Below, one piece after another: positions 35,737 to 47,572 of a DNA stretch of 48,241 bases. This DNA comes from Pseudomonadota bacterium (GTDB lineage Bacteria; Bdellovibrionota_B; Oligoflexia; Oligoflexales; CAIYRB01), in the NCBI GenBank assembly GCA_026390435.1, contig JAPLFY010000035.1, forward strand, positions 1 to 48,241, read 5' to 3'. The stretch's first letter is position 1, and each line of letters opens with the position of its first letter. Position numbers and translations under genes: made by a program. The notes below the pieces were generated by a model that saw nothing but the letters and a program-made list of their open reading frames with translations, ran no database searches and was not told the origin of the DNA.

Positions 35737-37242
35737 TTGCCTGCTGCATCCTCATTATCGCTTAAAGTTTTGCATTTGGATGACGATCCATTTGAGCTGG
35801 AACGGGTAAAAAATGCGCTGGAAAGACACGCGCTAGATTGTACCTTTCAGGTGGAATCTGTGAGCAATGTGAGCGATTACCGTAAAAAGCTCGCTAATTA
35901 TCCAGATCTAGTGATTTTAGATATTCATATCAACGATCCTGCTTTCACAGGTATCACCCTCACAAGAGAAACGCGGGAGTCCGCTCCCAACACCGTCATT
36001 TTGATGTGCTCAACTGCAGATGATGTACGCACGATTGCCGACTGCCTAAATGCAGATGCCGATGACTTCATTTCAAAACTGTCTGACAAAGGGGAGCTAA
36101 GCCTCAGAGTCTTCACCTCCTACCGCCTAGCTGCTATGAAGCGAGGTGGTAATTTTACTGCCCAGCCCATCAATAAAGATAGGCCTCTACCAGTCGGCGC
36201 AACTATGGAGCGGATAGCGCGCCGCATACCACTGATCCTCGATTCTGCAATCTCGGCTATATTCATCGTTGGCGAATCTGGAACCGGCAAAGAAGTGGTA
36301 GCAGATCTCATTGGTAGCGCCCTACCTCCAGAAACCCCGTTTATCAAAGTCAACTGCGGAGCCATTGCCCCAACCCTGCTCGAAAGTGAACTTTTCGGCC
36401 ACGTCAAGGGTGCCTTTACCGGTGCCACCGCCGACAAACGCGGTCTCCTGGAAGCGGCGTCCGGTGGCTTTATCTTCCTAGACGAAGTGGCCACGCTTAG
36501 CCCCTCAGCACAGGTGGCCCTGCTGCGGGTCCTTGAAGATCATACAATGCTCCGTGTCGGATCAACCAAGCCCGTACATCTTGACCTAAGAGTCCTATCG
36601 GCAACCAACGAGCCCCTTGAGACGCTGGTGGCGGAGGGTAAATTCCGCGCCGACCTTTGGCAAAGGCTCAGGGAAACTGAAATCAATCTGCCACCGCTGC
36701 GCCAGCGACCAGATGAAATACCGGCTTTAGTGGAGCGTTTTTGTAATAAAATGAACGGAGGTCCCTACACTGTGAGCGGGCCAGCAATGGCCGTACTCAC
36801 TAGCGCCAGCTGGCGTGCGGGAAATATCCGTGAACTCCGTAACTGTCTGCGTGCGATGACCGAAATGCATGTGAATAAGTTACTTACGCCACTTTCCATA
36901 CCGGAGAGACTCTGGGAGGAAATAGGCGAAAAGCCTGAAACACACACTCAAGTTCAAGCCGAACTAAAGCCACAGGTGCCACCTGACGATCCAGATGACA
37001 ACGGAATCGTAATTCCTTGGAAATATGACGACAAACAAACATATGATCACCTCACCGACCTTTTGCTACTAACCTTGACGCGCAAAGTAGCATCAAGGCA
37101 TGGGCGATTGTCACTGCGTAGCTTGGCTCAAACTATTGGAATCTCCCGCAGCACGTTATCTTCTCGGCTAAAAAATCTCGTCCATCGAAATTTGATTTCT
37201 ACTACTGAGCTCTCTCAACTCGTTGGAATTAATGAGGCCTAA
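35737..37242 (+). CDS. Sigma-54-dependent response regulator (receiver, AAA+, Fis-type HTH)
   Basis: NtrC-family activator that opens sigma-54 promoters using ATP. The receiver spans ~10-125, with LHLDDDPFE as acidic pocket and LVILDIHIND holding the phospho-acceptor Asp. The AAA+ core has GESGTGKE (Walker A), the sigma-54-contacting KGAFTGA loop, GFIFLDEVATL (Walker B) and LRETEINLPPLRQR. The last ~60 residues are a Fis-like HTH (LAQTIGISRSTLSSRL). I choose the TTG at 35737, eight bases after GGAGG; a TTG at 35713 lies upstream. It has no adjacent kinase gene, and the sigma-54 promoter at 35144 is an obvious candidate target. Confidence 0.93.
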   Translation: MPAASSLSLKVLHLDDDPFELERVKNALERHALDCTFQVESVSNVSDYRKKLANYPDLVILDIHINDPAFTGITLTRETRESAPNTVILMCSTADDVRTIADCLNADADDFISKLSDKGELSLRVFTSYRLAAMKRGGNFTAQPINKDRPLPVGATMERIARRIPLILDSAISAIFIVGESGTGKEVVADLIGSALPPETPFIKVNCGAIAPTLLESELFGHVKGAFTGATADKRGLLEAASGGFIFLDEVATLSPSAQVALLRVLEDHTMLRVGSTKPVHLDLRVLSATNEPLETLVAEGKFRADLWQRLRETEINLPPLRQRPDEIPALVERFCNKMNGGPYTVSGPAMAVLTSASWRAGNIRELRNCLRAMTEMHVNKLLTPLSIPERLWEEIGEKPETHTQVQAELKPQVPPDDPDDNGIVIPWKYDDKQTYDHLTDLLLLTLTRKVASRHGRLSLRSLAQTIGISRSTLSSRLKNLVHRNLISTTELSQLVGINEA

Positions 37243-37810
37243 CTTGTCTAAAGATCGTATTCAGTTGTCCCACGTGCGCCTGCATCTGATCATCGGAATT
37301 CTTCCCGCAGAAAGACTGATTCCACAGCCAGTGGATGTCGGTGTTGATCTAGAACTGGATCTAGGCAAAGCGGCCGTTAGTGGCAACTTAATCCAGAGTG
37401 TCGATTACGGAGACCTACTCAAGCAAGTCAGCTTTATCCTACATGCTGGGCACTTTTATCTATTGGAGACCGCAGCCCTTGCATTGGTTCACTTTTTGCT
37501 AACGCCTCTAAATAAAGACGCACAAGTCAGCCAAGCTCGAGTCAGTCTGAGCAAACGGGAAGCACCACGAGTTAGTCCAGCTATACCAAAAGTCACTGTT
37601 GCTAGAGACTTCGTCGATGTGAACGTAGCGGCAGAAAGAATTGGCGACACCACAATCCACCATATTTTCTCAGGACACAACGTCACCGTACAGCGACTGC
37701 ACGGTAATAACATTCCGACGGCGCAGTCTGACTCCAGACTTAAGGCACGAGTTGAAGATATGGAAGTAGCACCTGGCACCATCTTGCGCGTCAGATCTCT
37801 AGAGCTCTAA
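37232..37810 (+). CDS. folB: Dihydroneopterin aldolase/epimerase family with C-terminal extension
   Basis: T-fold enzyme of folate synthesis that cleaves dihydroneopterin. The first ~115 residues carry the family marks: QLSHVRLHLIIGILPAER, PQPVDVGVDLELDL, SVDYGDLLKQV and YLLETAALALVHFLL with the catalytic Glu. About 75 further residues are not part of FolB and are unrecognised (FVDVNVAAERIGDTTIHHIF and GHNVTVQRLHGNNIP). The start may be the ATG at 37232, overlapping the upstream stop, or a TTG at 37244 with GAGG six bases before it. It converges on the pterin operon. Confidence 0.8.
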   Translation: MRPNLSKDRIQLSHVRLHLIIGILPAERLIPQPVDVGVDLELDLGKAAVSGNLIQSVDYGDLLKQVSFILHAGHFYLLETAALALVHFLLTPLNKDAQVSQARVSLSKREAPRVSPAIPKVTVARDFVDVNVAAERIGDTTIHHIFSGHNVTVQRLHGNNIPTAQSDSRLKARVEDMEVAPGTILRVRSLEL

Positions 37811-37840
37811 AGGTGCGCCGTAGCAAAAACCACCGAGAGT

Positions 37841-38620
37841 TTAGGTGACAAGCATACCGCCATCGACCGGTAGTTCCACTCCGGTAATCCAGCCTGCTGC
37901 AGGACTCGCGAGAAACACCACCGCCATCGCGATATCCCGCGGCTGCCCCATCCGTCCGAGAGGATGTAGATGATCCACCGCGGCAGTGCTGTCAAGAAAG
38001 CTCTTTTCATCGACGAAACGACTACGGTACATCGGAGTGTCGACGATAGCTGGGAGGATCGCGTTCACTCTGACACCCTCGGGCCCTAGCTCGAGAGCAA
38101 GTGTCCGAGTAAGCTGACCAAGGGCGGCCTTGCTGGCGCTGTAGGCCGATGCACCCGGAATTGCTTTCTGCGCTAAAGTGGAACTTATATTGATCACCGA
38201 GGCATGCTTTGACCGGCTGAGTAAATCGAGCAAATCGCGAGTAAGGAAAAACGGTACACTCGCATTTAGTACAAAGCACTGATCCAAGCTGGCATCTTCG
38301 GTCTCCCGAATGGGAGCAGAGACAAAACAGCCGGCATTATTCACTAGCACATCCAAACTACCGAGCAGCTTGGCCTGCTCCACAACACGAGTACGGTCGG
38401 CATGAACGGCAAGATCCGCAGCCACCCGGTAAACCTGGCAACCAGCATTTATCGCACCAATAGCCTGTGCTGTGTGCTCGAGTTTTTTCGCCTCACGTCC
38501 TACCAAAATCAGCCTGGCAGTACCGGCTTTCGCCATTTCTACTGCAGTGGCTGCCCCGATGCCAGAACCCGCGCCCGTGATCAGAGCAGTATAACCATCT
38601 AAACTGAAAGCAGTAGACAT
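37841..38620 (-). CDS. SDR-family oxidoreductase, possible pterin (sepiapterin-type) reductase
   Basis: Classical short-chain dehydrogenase. The cofactor motif is TGAGSGIG, NNAG follows, and the catalytic Ser and YxxxK are in INISSTLAQ and YSASKAALG. VGREAKKLE after the second strand fits NADP binding. The end, GRMGQPRDIAMAVVFLASPAAGWITGVELPVDGG, is standard. It starts three bases after the 6-pyruvoyl-tetrahydropterin synthase stop, which suggests it reduces 6-pyruvoyl-tetrahydropterin or recycles dihydropterin; the fold alone would also allow many other substrates. Confidence 0.88.
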   Translation of the reverse strand: MSTAFSLDGYTALITGAGSGIGAATAVEMAKAGTARLILVGREAKKLEHTAQAIGAINAGCQVYRVAADLAVHADRTRVVEQAKLLGSLDVLVNNAGCFVSAPIRETEDASLDQCFVLNASVPFFLTRDLLDLLSRSKHASVINISSTLAQKAIPGASAYSASKAALGQLTRTLALELGPEGVRVNAILPAIVDTPMYRSRFVDEKSFLDSTAAVDHLHPLGRMGQPRDIAMAVVFLASPAAGWITGVELPVDGGMLVT

Positions 38621-38623
38621 GAT

Positions 38624-39043
38624 TTAGCTCCGTGTTTTGCGAACGCGATTGCTCGGTGTTTCATGAAGTACAATATCCTCTAGCCGCACATGAGGCGCTT
38701 CACGAGCTAACACGCTCACAATTCGTTCCCAGATTTTTTCTGCAAACATTTCAGTGGTTGGGACTACGCTTTGCATCCAAGAAACGTCAGTATTCAGATT
38801 CTTGTGATCCACGTCTGAGATCACTTGAGCAAACACGACCTCTTTCAGCTGGCGTAGATTCATGATCATACCCGTTTCAGGGTCCAGCGACCCGCTCACT
38901 GTAACTTCGAGAGTATAGTTATGGCCGTGCCCAGCAGGGTTAGCGCATAGTCCAAAAACCGAGGTGTTTTGCCTGTCGTCCCATTCAGGACGGTATAGCC
39001 GATGACCAGCACAAAATTGAAAGGCCCGAGTGATCGTCAGCAT
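38624..39043 (-). CDS. 6-pyruvoyl-tetrahydropterin synthase, eukaryotic-like
   Basis: Removes triphosphate from dihydroneopterin triphosphate to give 6-pyruvoyl-tetrahydropterin. Zinc ligands are His14 (CAGHRL), His39 and His41 (GHGHNY); the catalytic Cys33 is in FGLCANPAG; Asp79-His80 lie in VDHKNLN; Glu128 is in LHETPSN. The run FGLCANPAGHGHNYTLEV with SLDPETGMIMNL is close to the animal enzyme rather than bacterial QueD, whose Cys sits in a different context. It lies between aromatic amino acid hydroxylase and SDR genes, as expected for tetrahydrobiopterin synthesis. Confidence 0.88.
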   Translation of the reverse strand: MLTITRAFQFCAGHRLYRPEWDDRQNTSVFGLCANPAGHGHNYTLEVTVSGSLDPETGMIMNLRQLKEVVFAQVISDVDHKNLNTDVSWMQSVVPTTEMFAEKIWERIVSVLAREAPHVRLEDIVLHETPSNRVRKTRS

Positions 39044-39062
39044 TTATAAGTCCCTTTAAAGT

Positions 39063-40829
39063 TTAGTCTGCAGCCGTTGCCAGTGCTAGCCCCTGCTGCA
39101 CTAACCATCTTTTTTCCGTGCTTGAAGCTGCCGTCTCACGCTCAAGCCCTGCAGCGAGGTCATCGGCACCAGGTGCCTTAGTTCTCTTTGCAAGTTCGAC
39201 CAGCTCGAGCTGCAGGAGCCACTCATGCGGAAAACCAGCGCCAATGTCCTGGAGTAGCTGTGTCACCTGCTCGGCAAATACCTCAGGTCGCACAGAATTC
39301 GTGATTTTATCGCGTAGCTCTCGTACTTTCTGATAGGCGCCAAATGCGGCCAGCTCAGTGGCAGAGAAAGGTGAAGTCCTAGCAGGACTAGTTGCTGCTG
39401 TCCCGACATCATGCGAACCATATCGTTCAGGGTCGGCAGGGCCTCCAGAAACCGAGGTCACCGCTTCGCCGATAGCCATGTCAAAATCTCCCCACTCGGG
39501 AAGAAAATAGTCCTTTTCGCCTCTTTTAACGGAGCATCCGCGCCACTTTATAGCGAGTAAGGTCTGACTCTCGTCGCGCAATATTTCCGCAACTAAACCT
39601 ACAATTTCAAACCCGGTAGTGAGACGCAGCGTCGATTTTAAGCCGACCTCGATACCCAACTTAGTTAGATCGTATGTGTTGGCATAGCGCAGCGGCTTCT
39701 CGGCAAGGCCCACAGCACGCCCGAGTGGCGTGCTAAAGCCGAAAGCATGCTCACCTACGCTTTGCCCACGAAGTTCTCTGCCGTTTACACAAAGTTGTAC
39801 AGGTCCTTGCCACCTAACAAAATCTACGGACTGGTCGGCCTCGGACAAATATTCAGCGACTTCACCGCTAATCTGAATACCCGAATCCAAAGTGGTGGTG
39901 GTGACTGTGGCGCCACTTAACGCCTCAGACAAGCCATAAACACCACCCCGCTTGTAAGACAGTGTCTGCTCAAATTCGCGCAGCACTGCCTTCAAATGGT
40001 TAATGTCCTCAGCCACGAAAAGCTGCGGTTGCGGCTCGGTGATATCATATCCGGTCTCTACACAGTCGGCAGTCAATCGCAGTTTCTTGACCTTGGGCAT
40101 CAAACAAGCCTGGCTTTCGCCGACGGAAGACAAAAGACCCGCACCGTATATTTTAGGTGCCGCAAGTGAACCGATTAAACCGTACTCAACGGTCCACCAA
40201 TTCATCCGGGCTACTTTACTCGCCTCGGTTATGACTTTCACCGCAGCATTAGCCTGAGTCAAAGCCACTGTCGCAGATTGCACTTGCGAGGCAGTGCTAT
40301 CTGGATTCTCTTTCACATCCGACAGGGTCCGTATGGCCTCGTAAAGCTTTAAATCCTGCTTAGAGAAGATGGCTTTTTGTGCCATCGACGCATACATCTG
40401 AAGATATTCAGAATATTCCGGATCAGCGAGAATCGGAGCGTGTCCTGCAGCCTCATGCACAATATCCGGTGCTGGCGTATAGTGAATGTGATCTACAGAT
40501 CGCATATCCGAAGCAATTGGCAAAATTCGCCTAGCCTGAAAATCAAGAAAGGCTGCTGGCGGAATGAAGCCTTCCACTGGAACGGCTCCCCAGCCGAGAT
40601 CCCGTAGTTTGGCATCCATATCTGCGATACTTGGAATCCGATCCACGCTGATGCCAGTTCGACGCAGCCCCTCTAAATAGATGGGGACTGCGTGTTCCTT
40701 AAAATAAGCGCGTGACTGCCGCATGATGTAGCGCCAGCCAGCATGATCACGTGCCGAATACCGATCGGCACGCTGCTCGACACAGTATTTTTGCAGGTAG
40801 GCTGGTAGCTTGGCTATCGTTCGATACAT
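39063..40829 (-). CDS. Aromatic amino acid hydroxylase, long form
   Basis: Iron- and tetrahydropterin-dependent monooxygenase, most likely phenylalanine 4-hydroxylase. Iron ligands are His125 and His130 in PDIVHEAAGHAPILADP, and Glu215 in WWTVEYGLIG. GISVDRIPSIADMDAKL and IYGAGLLSSVGES complete the catalytic core, which ends near residue 310. There is an insertion at ~150-205. About 280 residues follow that I cannot assign (for example RWQGPVQLCVNGREL). Total length 588 is twice that of proteobacterial PhhA and like the long Bacteroidetes form. It is the first gene of the pterin operon, 19 bp before the synthase. Confidence 0.88.
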   Translation of the reverse strand: MYRTIAKLPAYLQKYCVEQRADRYSARDHAGWRYIMRQSRAYFKEHAVPIYLEGLRRTGISVDRIPSIADMDAKLRDLGWGAVPVEGFIPPAAFLDFQARRILPIASDMRSVDHIHYTPAPDIVHEAAGHAPILADPEYSEYLQMYASMAQKAIFSKQDLKLYEAIRTLSDVKENPDSTASQVQSATVALTQANAAVKVITEASKVARMNWWTVEYGLIGSLAAPKIYGAGLLSSVGESQACLMPKVKKLRLTADCVETGYDITEPQPQLFVAEDINHLKAVLREFEQTLSYKRGGVYGLSEALSGATVTTTTLDSGIQISGEVAEYLSEADQSVDFVRWQGPVQLCVNGRELRGQSVGEHAFGFSTPLGRAVGLAEKPLRYANTYDLTKLGIEVGLKSTLRLTTGFEIVGLVAEILRDESQTLLAIKWRGCSVKRGEKDYFLPEWGDFDMAIGEAVTSVSGGPADPERYGSHDVGTAATSPARTSPFSATELAAFGAYQKVRELRDKITNSVRPEVFAEQVTQLLQDIGAGFPHEWLLQLELVELAKRTKAPGADDLAAGLERETAASSTEKRWLVQQGLALATAAD

Positions 40830-44956: not shown

Positions 44957-45046
44957 TATCAATATATTATCAAAACCCTTTAAAGTTTTTCCCACCCCCA
45001 CCGAAAAGTCAGCAGAAGAAAGATATTGCGTTTAGGAGTCATAGTC

Positions 45047-45556
45047 ATGCTGACTAGCACGGTGGATTTCGGAAATCTAACTATCGATATCCAACAAACT
45101 GCAAATGAAGTCGTCTATAAATTCGTCGGCGAAGTCGATGAACACTTCCGGCAAAAAGACGTGCCTAGAGTAAAGAAGGCAAATATCACCTTTGTCCTGG
45201 AAGACATTGCCACATTCAACTCCTGTGGTATCCGGGAATGGATATACCTGGTCCGCGATATCAGTGAGCTAGGGGCCTTGAAGTTTACCAAATGCTCTGT
45301 GGCAATGATCGATCAAATTAATATGGTCCCGGACTCTATCGGCAAAGGTACTGTTGATTCATTTTTCGCTCCCTACTACTGCAACTGTGGTGGCGAAGTA
45401 AATCGACTAATCAATGTCGGTGATTGCCTACCCCTCTTACTCAGGAAAAATGCTCCTGAGTTTAAATGCGAAGAATGCGGCAACAAACTCGAGTTTGATG
45501 CTTTAGAAGAAAGTTACTTTCTGTTTGCTGAAGCGGCACTACCTGAAGCCTCCTAG
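45047..45556 (+). CDS. STAS-like protein with C-terminal zinc ribbon
   Basis: Residues ~1-100 look like a STAS fold: paired strands, then VLEDIATFNSCGIREW, where Ser59 sits in the place of the phosphorylated Ser of anti-sigma antagonists. Residues 112-144 form a four-Cys zinc ribbon (CNC and CEEC, Cys112, 114, 141, 144). I start at the ATG at 45047 (169 residues), ten bases after TAGGAG. It leads the run with the CheA-like and CheW genes. A role as a switch or adaptor for that assembly is inference; I know no named family with this exact pairing. Confidence 0.7.
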   Translation: MLTSTVDFGNLTIDIQQTANEVVYKFVGEVDEHFRQKDVPRVKKANITFVLEDIATFNSCGIREWIYLVRDISELGALKFTKCSVAMIDQINMVPDSIGKGTVDSFFAPYYCNCGGEVNRLINVGDCLPLLLRKNAPEFKCEECGNKLEFDALEESYFLFAEAALPEAS

Positions 45557-45608: not shown

Positions 45609-47018
45609 ATGGGCATGGATGCTCTGACGGCTTCAGCATTTACTGCTTTAGCCCGAACACAACTCCCTGATCTGCACAGAAAGTTAGCTGCCTTAGCTAA
45701 GCTACCAGTAAGCAAACGGGAAGCCGACTCGGAACTCGCACAAGCCGTCAGCGCTGTTCAGGCCTCCTTTTTTCGACTCAATGAATGGATCAACGGCCAA
45801 TGCGTTGGCACCACACCAGATCACCTGATCCAAAACGAGATCAAGCTCGATCATTCCCAAGCGGAGCTCACAAAGAGTGCGGAAGATGAATATGAGTCGA
45901 AGGCAGCCACCAATAAAGCCCATTTAGACTCCCTCAGCACTCTGGCCGCTGAGCTCGTCTTCGACCGAACAAGGTTTACCAGTATCGAGGAGGATATTCG
46001 CTCCATACTTCCCCGCAACATCGCAAATACTTTGACAGAAGCCATTCAACAACTTGACCAACACACAAAACAAATGCGTGACACTGTCATGAAAATAAGA
46101 ATGGTGCCACTCCGCCATGCATTCAGCAGATTACCCACATTGGTTCGGGAATTAGGCGCCCAGCTGGGCAAAGACATTGAGATTCAATTCATCGGAGAAA
46201 GTACTGCGCTCGACAAAACTATGGTCGAACAAATTGAAGACCCACTCGTCCGACTGATCCAGAATTCCTGTAGGCAGGGAATTGAGACTCCTGACACGAG
46301 ACATAAGGTAGGCAAACCTTCACCAGGGCTAATAAAAATATCCGCGCGACAAGAGGGCAATTATATACTTATCGTCATCAACGATGATGGACAGCCGCAC
46401 CGCGATGTTGACATGGATATCGTCCAAAGCCAAATATCCAAACTCCAAGGCACTTTGGAGTTAGATTCAACGCAGGCACAGGGCACCACCGTCACCATCA
46501 AGCTTCCGTTAACTCTAGCAATGGCTCAAAGCCTACTTGTGGAATCTGCGGGTGAGCTCTTCGCCATTCCGATGGGTTCAGTCATCGAGTCAAAGCGTAT
46601 CAATCCCGAAGAAATCCAAGTCAACGGCAACACAAGTTTCATCCAACAATACGATTGCAAGATACCAGTGATTTATCTTCATGAAGCTTTCAAACTGGAT
46701 TCTAAAAATGAAATTTCCTGGTACTCAAAAAATCAATACCAAAGGAACCAAACTCGATTACAGGACAAGCGCTTAGCACGCCGTGAGGACCGCCTGTATG
46801 TCGTAATTATTGGTTCAGGCGAGCAAAGATTCGGGCTTGTCGTCGACCAGGTTTTATACCAACAAGAGATCGCAATTAAATCACTTGGCCCTATACTACA
46901 CACGCTACCCTACATCGCTGGCGGATTTATTTCTGGCAATGGCGAGGTCGTATTAGTACTCGACCTCGAACAGATTGAATCACGATTTATATCAACCGTA
47001 AGGAGAAGGGCCGCATGA
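45609..47018 (+). CDS. CheA-like protein with degenerate kinase core
   Basis: The order of a chemotaxis kinase is kept but its chemistry is not. Residues ~8-60 resemble a P1 domain whose phosphorylated His position is Phe (VQASFFRLNEW). Residues 104-165 are the P3 dimerisation helices, with VMKIRMVPL. In the ATPase domain the N-box keeps Asn219 (RLIQNSCRQGIE), but after DDG (259-261) the chain jumps to VDMDIV, losing the F-box, the GRGVG loop and the ATP lid, about 45-50 residues. GTTVTIKLPLTLA and the CheW-like P5 domain (to ~465) are well kept. It overlaps cheW by four bases. A structural or adaptor role is more likely than kinase activity. Confidence 0.82.
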   Translation: MGMDALTASAFTALARTQLPDLHRKLAALAKLPVSKREADSELAQAVSAVQASFFRLNEWINGQCVGTTPDHLIQNEIKLDHSQAELTKSAEDEYESKAATNKAHLDSLSTLAAELVFDRTRFTSIEEDIRSILPRNIANTLTEAIQQLDQHTKQMRDTVMKIRMVPLRHAFSRLPTLVRELGAQLGKDIEIQFIGESTALDKTMVEQIEDPLVRLIQNSCRQGIETPDTRHKVGKPSPGLIKISARQEGNYILIVINDDGQPHRDVDMDIVQSQISKLQGTLELDSTQAQGTTVTIKLPLTLAMAQSLLVESAGELFAIPMGSVIESKRINPEEIQVNGNTSFIQQYDCKIPVIYLHEAFKLDSKNEISWYSKNQYQRNQTRLQDKRLARREDRLYVVIIGSGEQRFGLVVDQVLYQQEIAIKSLGPILHTLPYIAGGFISGNGEVVLVLDLEQIESRFISTVRRRAA

Positions 47019-47572
47019 ATCTCGACCTTAGCAGCAGCAGCGATTCGTTCGACTCCGACAAGGCCCAAAGCGAGCAGCAAAAACCAGTCTCTAATAAAGC
47101 TCATAAAGCGGTGCCCGAAGTCGAGAACGATAAGTTTTTTAGCTTCTTTATTAATGACGCTGAATACTTATTACCAGTTGCAAAGGTCGAGGAAGTTACT
47201 ATTTTGCCATCAATTTCTTTCTTGCCTAATGCAAACAGATACTTAGACGGTGCATTTCATCTACGCGGAAGTATACTGCCGGCAATCAACATGAGGAAAA
47301 TTTCCGGATCACCAAGAGGAGAGCCTTCGCCTGAAAGCCGCCTCATTGTGGTCCGTGAGGCTGGACTCGATTTCGGGTTAATAGTAGATAGGATTAATCA
47401 TGTGATCACTCTATCTGCGGACCATATAGAGTGCCAAACCCAATCCAGCTACCCTAACAGCGGGAATTTTTGCAGCCAAAACTTCAAAAACGGCAACCGA
47501 TTTATAGGCATTGTAGAGCTCAGCAAATTATTAACGCTGATAACCGGCGAAACTAATCTCGACCTTTCATAA
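47015..47572 (+). CDS. cheW: CheW-type coupling protein
   Basis: Adaptor that links chemoreceptors to CheA. After a ~40-residue Ser/Lys-rich leader the CheW double barrel begins at FFSFFINDAEYLLPVAKVEEV. The conserved LRGSILPAINMR holds the Arg needed for receptor binding, and LIVVREAGLDFGLIVDRI follows as expected. Its ATG lies inside the end of the CheA-like gene (ATGA overlap), so the two are translated together. The leader is longer than in ordinary CheW. Confidence 0.92.
   Translation: MNLDLSSSSDSFDSDKAQSEQQKPVSNKAHKAVPEVENDKFFSFFINDAEYLLPVAKVEEVTILPSISFLPNANRYLDGAFHLRGSILPAINMRKISGSPRGEPSPESRLIVVREAGLDFGLIVDRINHVITLSADHIECQTQSSYPNSGNFCSQNFKNGNRFIGIVELSKLLTLITGETNLDLS

Follow-up and report, generated by a model that had tools for sequence, protein, structure and literature searches.

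In a survey of 13,673 CheA proteins, P1, P3, P4 and P5 made up the core of the protein and variation in the size of P4 was not substantial (PMC10782961). The CheA3 protein of Rhodobacter (Cereibacter) sphaeroides has a P4 domain that is without one helix and the ATP/Mg residues, together with a retained P5; it keeps a working P1 that is phosphorylated by the P1-less CheA4, and the pair is still a kinase (PMC10782961). ParP of Vibrio, which is encoded together with the ParA-like protein ParC, is non-enzymatic and both promotes arrays and positions them: its N-terminus binds ParC and its CheW-like domain builds arrays, and a ParP protein in which the P5 domain of CheA replaced its own domain brought array localisation back in a cheA mutant (PMC5706961). 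CheS of Sinorhizobium meliloti, which is of an alphaproteobacterial type, is a STAS protein from a chemotaxis cluster; it consists of a single STAS domain, binds CheA and affects transfer between two CheY proteins (PMC12654446). Here we describe a CheA homologue encoded in a stretch of 48,241 nucleotides (the window) from the genome of an uncultured bacterium that named relatives place in the Oligoflexus group. In a literature search no CheA pseudokinase was found.

The initial annotation had placed this homologue at positions 45609-47018 and proposed that it has lost its catalytic parts, and in both respects it is correct. The open reading frame, on the plus strand, encodes 469 residues without internal stops and comprises P3, a truncated P4 and P5 (Table 1). 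Pfam recognised the CheW/P5 domain (3.4e-19) and the H-kinase_dim/P3 domain (2.2e-07; 31.7 bits against a cut-off of 23), HATPase_c stayed just below threshold (25.8 bits, cut-off 26.4), and an Hpt domain was not matched. It had also been noted that the sequence jumps from DDG to VDMDIV; we found that 46 residues, including the second G1 glycine, the F-box and the ATP lid, are indeed absent between G1 and G2 (junction sequences DDGQPHRDVDMDIV and DDGQAQRDVDMDIV), and that the G2 motif GRGVGMD has become HRDVDMD, with its glycines replaced. That exactly 46 residues are missing follows from a comparison with 26 orthologues by motif scan, in which the G1-to-G2 spacing is 5 in the window protein and in its orthologue from genome G002 and 51 in every other orthologue measured, together with the conservation of the lid columns in 23 of 23 intact relatives (alignment A1). 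Alignment to solved CheA structures is likewise broken at the junction, the PDB chains matching to around residue 262 (DDG) and resuming at 265 with about 48 template residues skipped. The N-box carries damage additional to the lesions listed in the initial annotation, namely the four substitutions H215R, R218Q, D222R and H223Q at H, R, D and H residues that are otherwise invariant. When positions kept in at least 95% of intact relatives are taken as conserved, all 14 of those in the lid are changed, along with 14 of 31 in P3 and 5 of 39 in P5. The view that P3 and P5 are both well preserved can thus be upheld for P5, which is the best retained among the array-building parts, but P3 is recognisable rather than well preserved.

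Table 1. Features of the cheA locus, with positions in the window.
Feature	Position	Strand	Evidence and remarks
STAS-Zn, STAS-fold protein with C-terminal Cys pairs, directly upstream of cheA	45047..45556	+	AlphaFold, Foldseek; ORF start possible at 45026
CheA homologue (kinase-dead), 469 aa	45609..47018	+	ORF, Pfam, PDB chain alignment, motif scan
CheA N-terminal segment, residues 1-60	45609..45788	+	Family-specific; dN/dS 0.042, 98% identity to G002
P3 dimerisation domain, residues 100-163	45906..46097	+	Diverged; Pfam H-kinase_dim
Truncated P4, residues 164-302	46098..46514	+	HATPase_c below cut-off; pLDDT mostly 73-91; Foldseek to CheA P4 (1i58/1i59)
Altered N-box DPLVRLIQNSCRQGIE	46239..46286	+	Family consensus DPLIHLIRNSCDHGIE; motif scan, conserved-column comparison
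Deletion junction, 46 residues gone	46383..46424	+	G1 remnant DDG 46383-46391; junction 46392-46400; altered G2 HRDVDMDIV; same in G002
P5 CheW-like domain, residues 303-469	46515..47015	+	Pfam; conserved positions
CheW	47015..47572	+	Overlaps cheA stop by 4 bases; Pfam 2.2e-22
ParA-like ATPase, cut by contig end	47669..48241	+	Pfam AAA_31 1.4e-37; 258 aa in G002

The start of the protein had been read as P1-like, with Phe in place of the phosphorylated His, and this reading has to be abandoned. In three relatives from the same family that share the neighbouring genes (G001, G003 and G006), CheA is built in the order N-terminal segment, acidic repeat region, P1 with the motif HTLKGA, and P3-P4-P5. 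As the N-terminal segment exists there beside a separate, genuine P1, the P1 domain of the window CheA is wholly absent rather than mutated, and the acidic region is gone as well; by the same token the N-terminal 60 or so residues are ruled out as a P1 without its His. Species whose kinase is intact lack the His of the segment, too. In relatives from another family of the class, its counterpart in the alignment is an N-terminal Hpt that does bear the His, and the segment may be the remnant of an old Hpt. It occurs too in genomes that have no parA gene at the locus. In the full-length relatives (L038, L039 and L042), the acidic repeats between the N-terminal segment and P1, at CheA residues ~65-300, are of the type SDEEALRLLAEMD. 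In genome G034 (L070:1380-3683), the N-terminal segment and the acidic repeat occupy an ORF of their own that precedes the remaining CheA by about 25 bases, possibly representing a split gene or a frameshift. We also considered that the segment might be an obligate partner of STAS-Zn, and dropped this idea on finding that the G034 segment ORF has no neighbouring STAS gene.

Of the features that define a CheA kinase, the window protein has P5, a diverged P3 and descent from CheA, as its gene shares synteny with the family's full-length CheA genes and groups among them in a tree; it lacks a P4 domain with N, G1, F and G2 boxes and lid, and a P1/Hpt with a phosphorylatable His. It is a member of the CheA lineage in which two defining features of a CheA kinase are missing. 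We infer that it can no longer autophosphorylate, and the loss of kinase function is well supported because P1 is absent, the lid is deleted, G2 and the N-box are altered and a second species is in the same state. An AlphaFold model of the protein (26 sequences) had a mean pLDDT of 63, with block means of ~73-91 in P4 and mostly 55-83 in P5, which has a weak loop region, and with low confidence for the N-terminus, the linker and P3. CheA structures were the first Foldseek matches, both over P3-P5 and for P4 alone. The shortened P4 can thus still be modelled as a folded domain of the CheA P4 type.

The second species is represented by G002 (contig CAIWTN010000017.1, from an uncultured bacterium), which codes for the same CheA, 89% identical, with a full reading frame and the same in-frame absence. 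The lid is kept in 25 of 27 orthologues, the exceptions being the window genome (G000) and G002, and among the 58 genomes of the phylum that were searched only these two align through the junction. The genes at the locus are arranged, with some variation, as LAP - enolase - M28 peptidase - STAS-Zn - cheA - cheW - parA, followed by a gene on the opposite strand for a protein of ~2000 aa; this last protein (2002 aa at L037:10971-16979) is conserved in the family and gave only a weak TPR match.

It can be seen from these loci that parts of CheA were lost in steps. The protein is complete in G001, G003 and G006 (905, 902 and 914 aa, respectively). In G004 (638 aa) the acidic region is lost and P1 and the kinase are present; in G005 (518 aa; L041:15499-17052) P1 is lost, the lid is kept and the N-box is partly altered (H to Q), and in G000 and G002 both P1 and the lid are gone. 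G005 is thus a living intermediate. A reference tree of neighbouring genes (STAS-Zn, enolase, ParA and LAP) joins G004 with G005 (100%), and that pair with G000 and G002 (100%). Since G004, which has kept P1, groups with G005, P1 was lost at least twice independently. In a CheA tree made from P3-P5 with the lid excluded, the stem of G000 and G002 has a length of 1.03 substitutions per site, compared with 0.071 for the reference tree (~15-fold), and the G005 branch is 0.84 against 0.066 (~13-fold), whereas in intact lineages the CheA and reference branches differ 0.9- to 3-fold. The order of loss would have been the acidic linker, then P1 (twice in the genus), and then the lid along with remodelling of the receptor tips described below.

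The operon consists of STAS-Zn, cheA, cheW and parA, and holds neither an Hpt gene nor a second CheA. STAS-Zn was not recognised by Pfam, and its fold was found by Foldseek using an AlphaFold model (pLDDT 93), the best matches being anti-sigma-factor antagonists (4hyl, E 6.7e-5). Its 18 orthologues (alignment A2) lie beside cheA-cheW in Oligoflexales genomes; none of 41 conserved columns is changed in the window protein, and the Ser and Gly of a loop of the type NS(C/V)GIREW are invariant in all 18 sequences. STAS-Zn may belong to a CheS-like family of partner proteins. The ParA-like ATPase shows zero amino-acid changes relative to G002 over 191 aa. Elsewhere in the window, at 37223-40829, a FolB-like dihydroneopterin aldolase, an SDR protein, a 139-aa minus-strand ORF and a Biopterin_H-domain protein of 588 aa are grouped, possibly as a cluster for a pterin-dependent aromatic amino acid hydroxylase that includes the genes for its cofactor.

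There is no receptor gene at the cheA locus. A genome search found two receptors outside the second Che cluster, of which receptor A adjoins a divergent flagellin gene and receptor B adjoins motA-motB-TPR. The hairpin tips of these receptors are degenerate (one at L076:4357-7096, the other at L077:5236-10404), reading in G000 as NLVALNSSIQSARAGDPGQGESFAAFATEVSRLS, with a two-residue insertion, and NTTIGLARGGGEERVFRAVAEELIKIS. The alterations are limited to G000 and G002; in G004 and G005 the apparent orthologues of both receptors, whose neighbours are the same, have canonical tips. As the tip changes and the dead CheA coincide in these two species, we take receptors A and B to be its likely partners, a match that is correlation and not proof. 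The genome has FlhA and eight flagellin matches, and the organism very probably swims. The only other CheA found in the genome, on contig C54, is complete, with two Hpt, HATPase, two CheW and REC, and can presumably steer the cell.

Selection was assessed as dN/dS by the Nei-Gojobori method, comparing G000 with G002. The values were 0.233 for CheA (P = 1e-14), 0.301 for CheW (P = 2.8e-5), and 0.181 and 0.233 for receptors A and B, each of the four being significantly below 1 (P from 2.8e-5 to 1e-27), and no stop or frameshift is present in any of these genes in either genome. STAS-Zn gave 0.012 and ParA 0, and in the second Che system CheA, CheW and the receptor gave 0.058, 0.043 and 0.024, respectively. 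Constraint on the window CheA is therefore four-fold weaker than on the other CheA of the genome; relative to an intact pair from the same genus, with 0.098 for the whole protein, it is weaker by a factor of about 2.4. Within CheA, the N-terminal segment, P3, P4 and P5 gave 0.217, 0.000, 0.027 and 0.033 for the intact pair G001/G003, and 0.042, 0.340, 0.168 and 0.260 for the dead pair. The pattern is inverted and the N-terminal segment is now the most constrained part, with fewer changes than expected (P = 0.004, uncorrected, and from small counts with only one change there). In G004/G005 the segment is 95% identical, as against ~60-66% identity over P3-P5. We conclude that constraint has shifted to the N-terminal segment, the STAS protein and ParA.

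We give an even chance to the explanation that the window CheA serves arrays as a scaffold or tether without enzymatic activity, in a way comparable to ParP of Vibrio. The protein would persist in a structural role within a chemoreceptor array, in which P5 would pack with the neighbouring CheW and with the flagellin-linked and motAB-linked receptors, P3 would supply dimerisation and, more speculatively, the N-terminal segment would tie the array to STAS-Zn and/or ParA, leaving the signalling of the cell to be carried by the second, intact CheA system. This is favoured by the shared deletion in intact frames, the series of losses, the persisting purifying selection and the selective retention of P5, by the altered receptor tips in the same species, the inverted constraint, the holding of STAS-Zn and ParA and the folded P4 model, and by the intact CheA with two Hpt domains and an HATPase in the same genome. 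Against it counts the relaxation of constraint on CheA, CheW and the receptors relative to the second Che system, which is what decay predicts. Furthermore, the canonical packing may be gone, since the losses in the receptor tips include conserved residues that ordinarily make the contacts to CheW and P5, and a tethering role for the N-terminal segment is made less attractive by its presence in genomes without parA and by the G034 arrangement. A more specific proposal, that CheA became a ParA-positioned, ParP-like array tether whose core drifts, with the N-terminal segment, STAS and ParA held and the receptor tips adapted to a kinase-less array, we regard as rather doubtful. Slow decay is a serious possibility, although we would not expect it to be the correct answer: the pathway of CheA, CheW and receptors A and B would be dispensable, STAS-Zn and ParA would be kept for some other purpose and the frames would persist through recent divergence or mild use. 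It would fit with the joint rise of dN/dS in four components (0.18-0.30, where the second Che system has 0.02-0.06), with the alteration of receptor tips and CheA core in the same lineage, with the two losses of P1 and with the existence of flagellate Oligoflexales that have no close match to the window CheA (G020). However, decay accounts less easily for frames kept open in all four genes of both species, for the selective retention of P5 positions and for the tightened N-terminus, and the significant purifying selection on each gene and the in-frame lid deletion, fixed in both species, also speak against it. The suggestion in the initial annotation of selection for a non-kinase role is supported in so far as dN/dS departs strongly from neutrality and P5 is preferentially retained, but it is tempered by the weakened constraint, with which slow decay is possible.

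The remaining explanations appear much less probable. That the dead CheA acts in trans with the intact C54 CheA, as a regulatory or array-filling subunit of mixed arrays, is improbable; the C54 protein is complete and is the sole other CheA found, and precedents for split or cooperating pairs of CheA exist (CheA3/CheA4, PMC10782961), but P3-P5 of the two proteins belong to different CheA lineages (31-40% identity over matched pieces), the operon has its own CheW, and the putative partner receptors differ from the receptor of the C54 cluster. A split kinase, with the missing catalytic parts coming from other proteins, could draw on the stand-alone Hpt genes in these genomes, and the P1-less CheA of G005, with its intact lid, is comparable to CheA4; the lack of an Hpt gene in the operon and the additional alteration of the N-box and G2 make it very improbable. 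We know of no HATPase for which the ATP lid is supplied in trans. Least credible of all is an assembly or sequencing artefact: the source genomes are fragmented and apparently metagenome-assembled, yet the same 138-base in-frame absence is found in the assemblies of two species, with different junction codons.

Whether the window CheA is an array scaffold or is decaying, it is one CheA without either half of the phosphotransfer chemistry, still under selection, and one genus contains living intermediates. The case provides a natural test of the usefulness of chemoreceptor arrays that have no kinase output, and it can serve as a model for the transition from kinase to scaffold; if decay is the true explanation, the locus records the sequence of steps by which a chemosensory pathway breaks down.

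Comparison with the known systems brings out what is shared and what is particular to this protein. In common with canonical CheA (Thermotoga maritima 1b3q/3ja6, E. coli 6s1k) it has the order and fold of P3-P4-P5, but it is without P1 and the ATP lid and has an altered G2 and N-box. STAS-Zn resembles CheS in its STAS fold, the loop Ser and its location in a chemotaxis cluster, and a CheS-like protein would bind CheA; it differs in its added C-terminus with Cys pairs and in adjoining a CheA that is unlikely to phosphorylate. As with CheA3/CheA4, a CheA with a broken catalytic part appears to have been kept at the array; however, the window CheA alone lacks both P1 and the ATP site, and its operon has no partner Hpt or kinase. 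The likeness to ParP lies in the C-terminal P5/CheW-like domain recognised by Pfam, the constrained N-terminal segment, which might bind ParA, and the nearby ParA-like gene, whereas the window protein, unlike ParP, is a CheA with P3 and P4, whose best relatives are CheA proteins over P3-P4-P5 and whose gene is syntenic with cheA.
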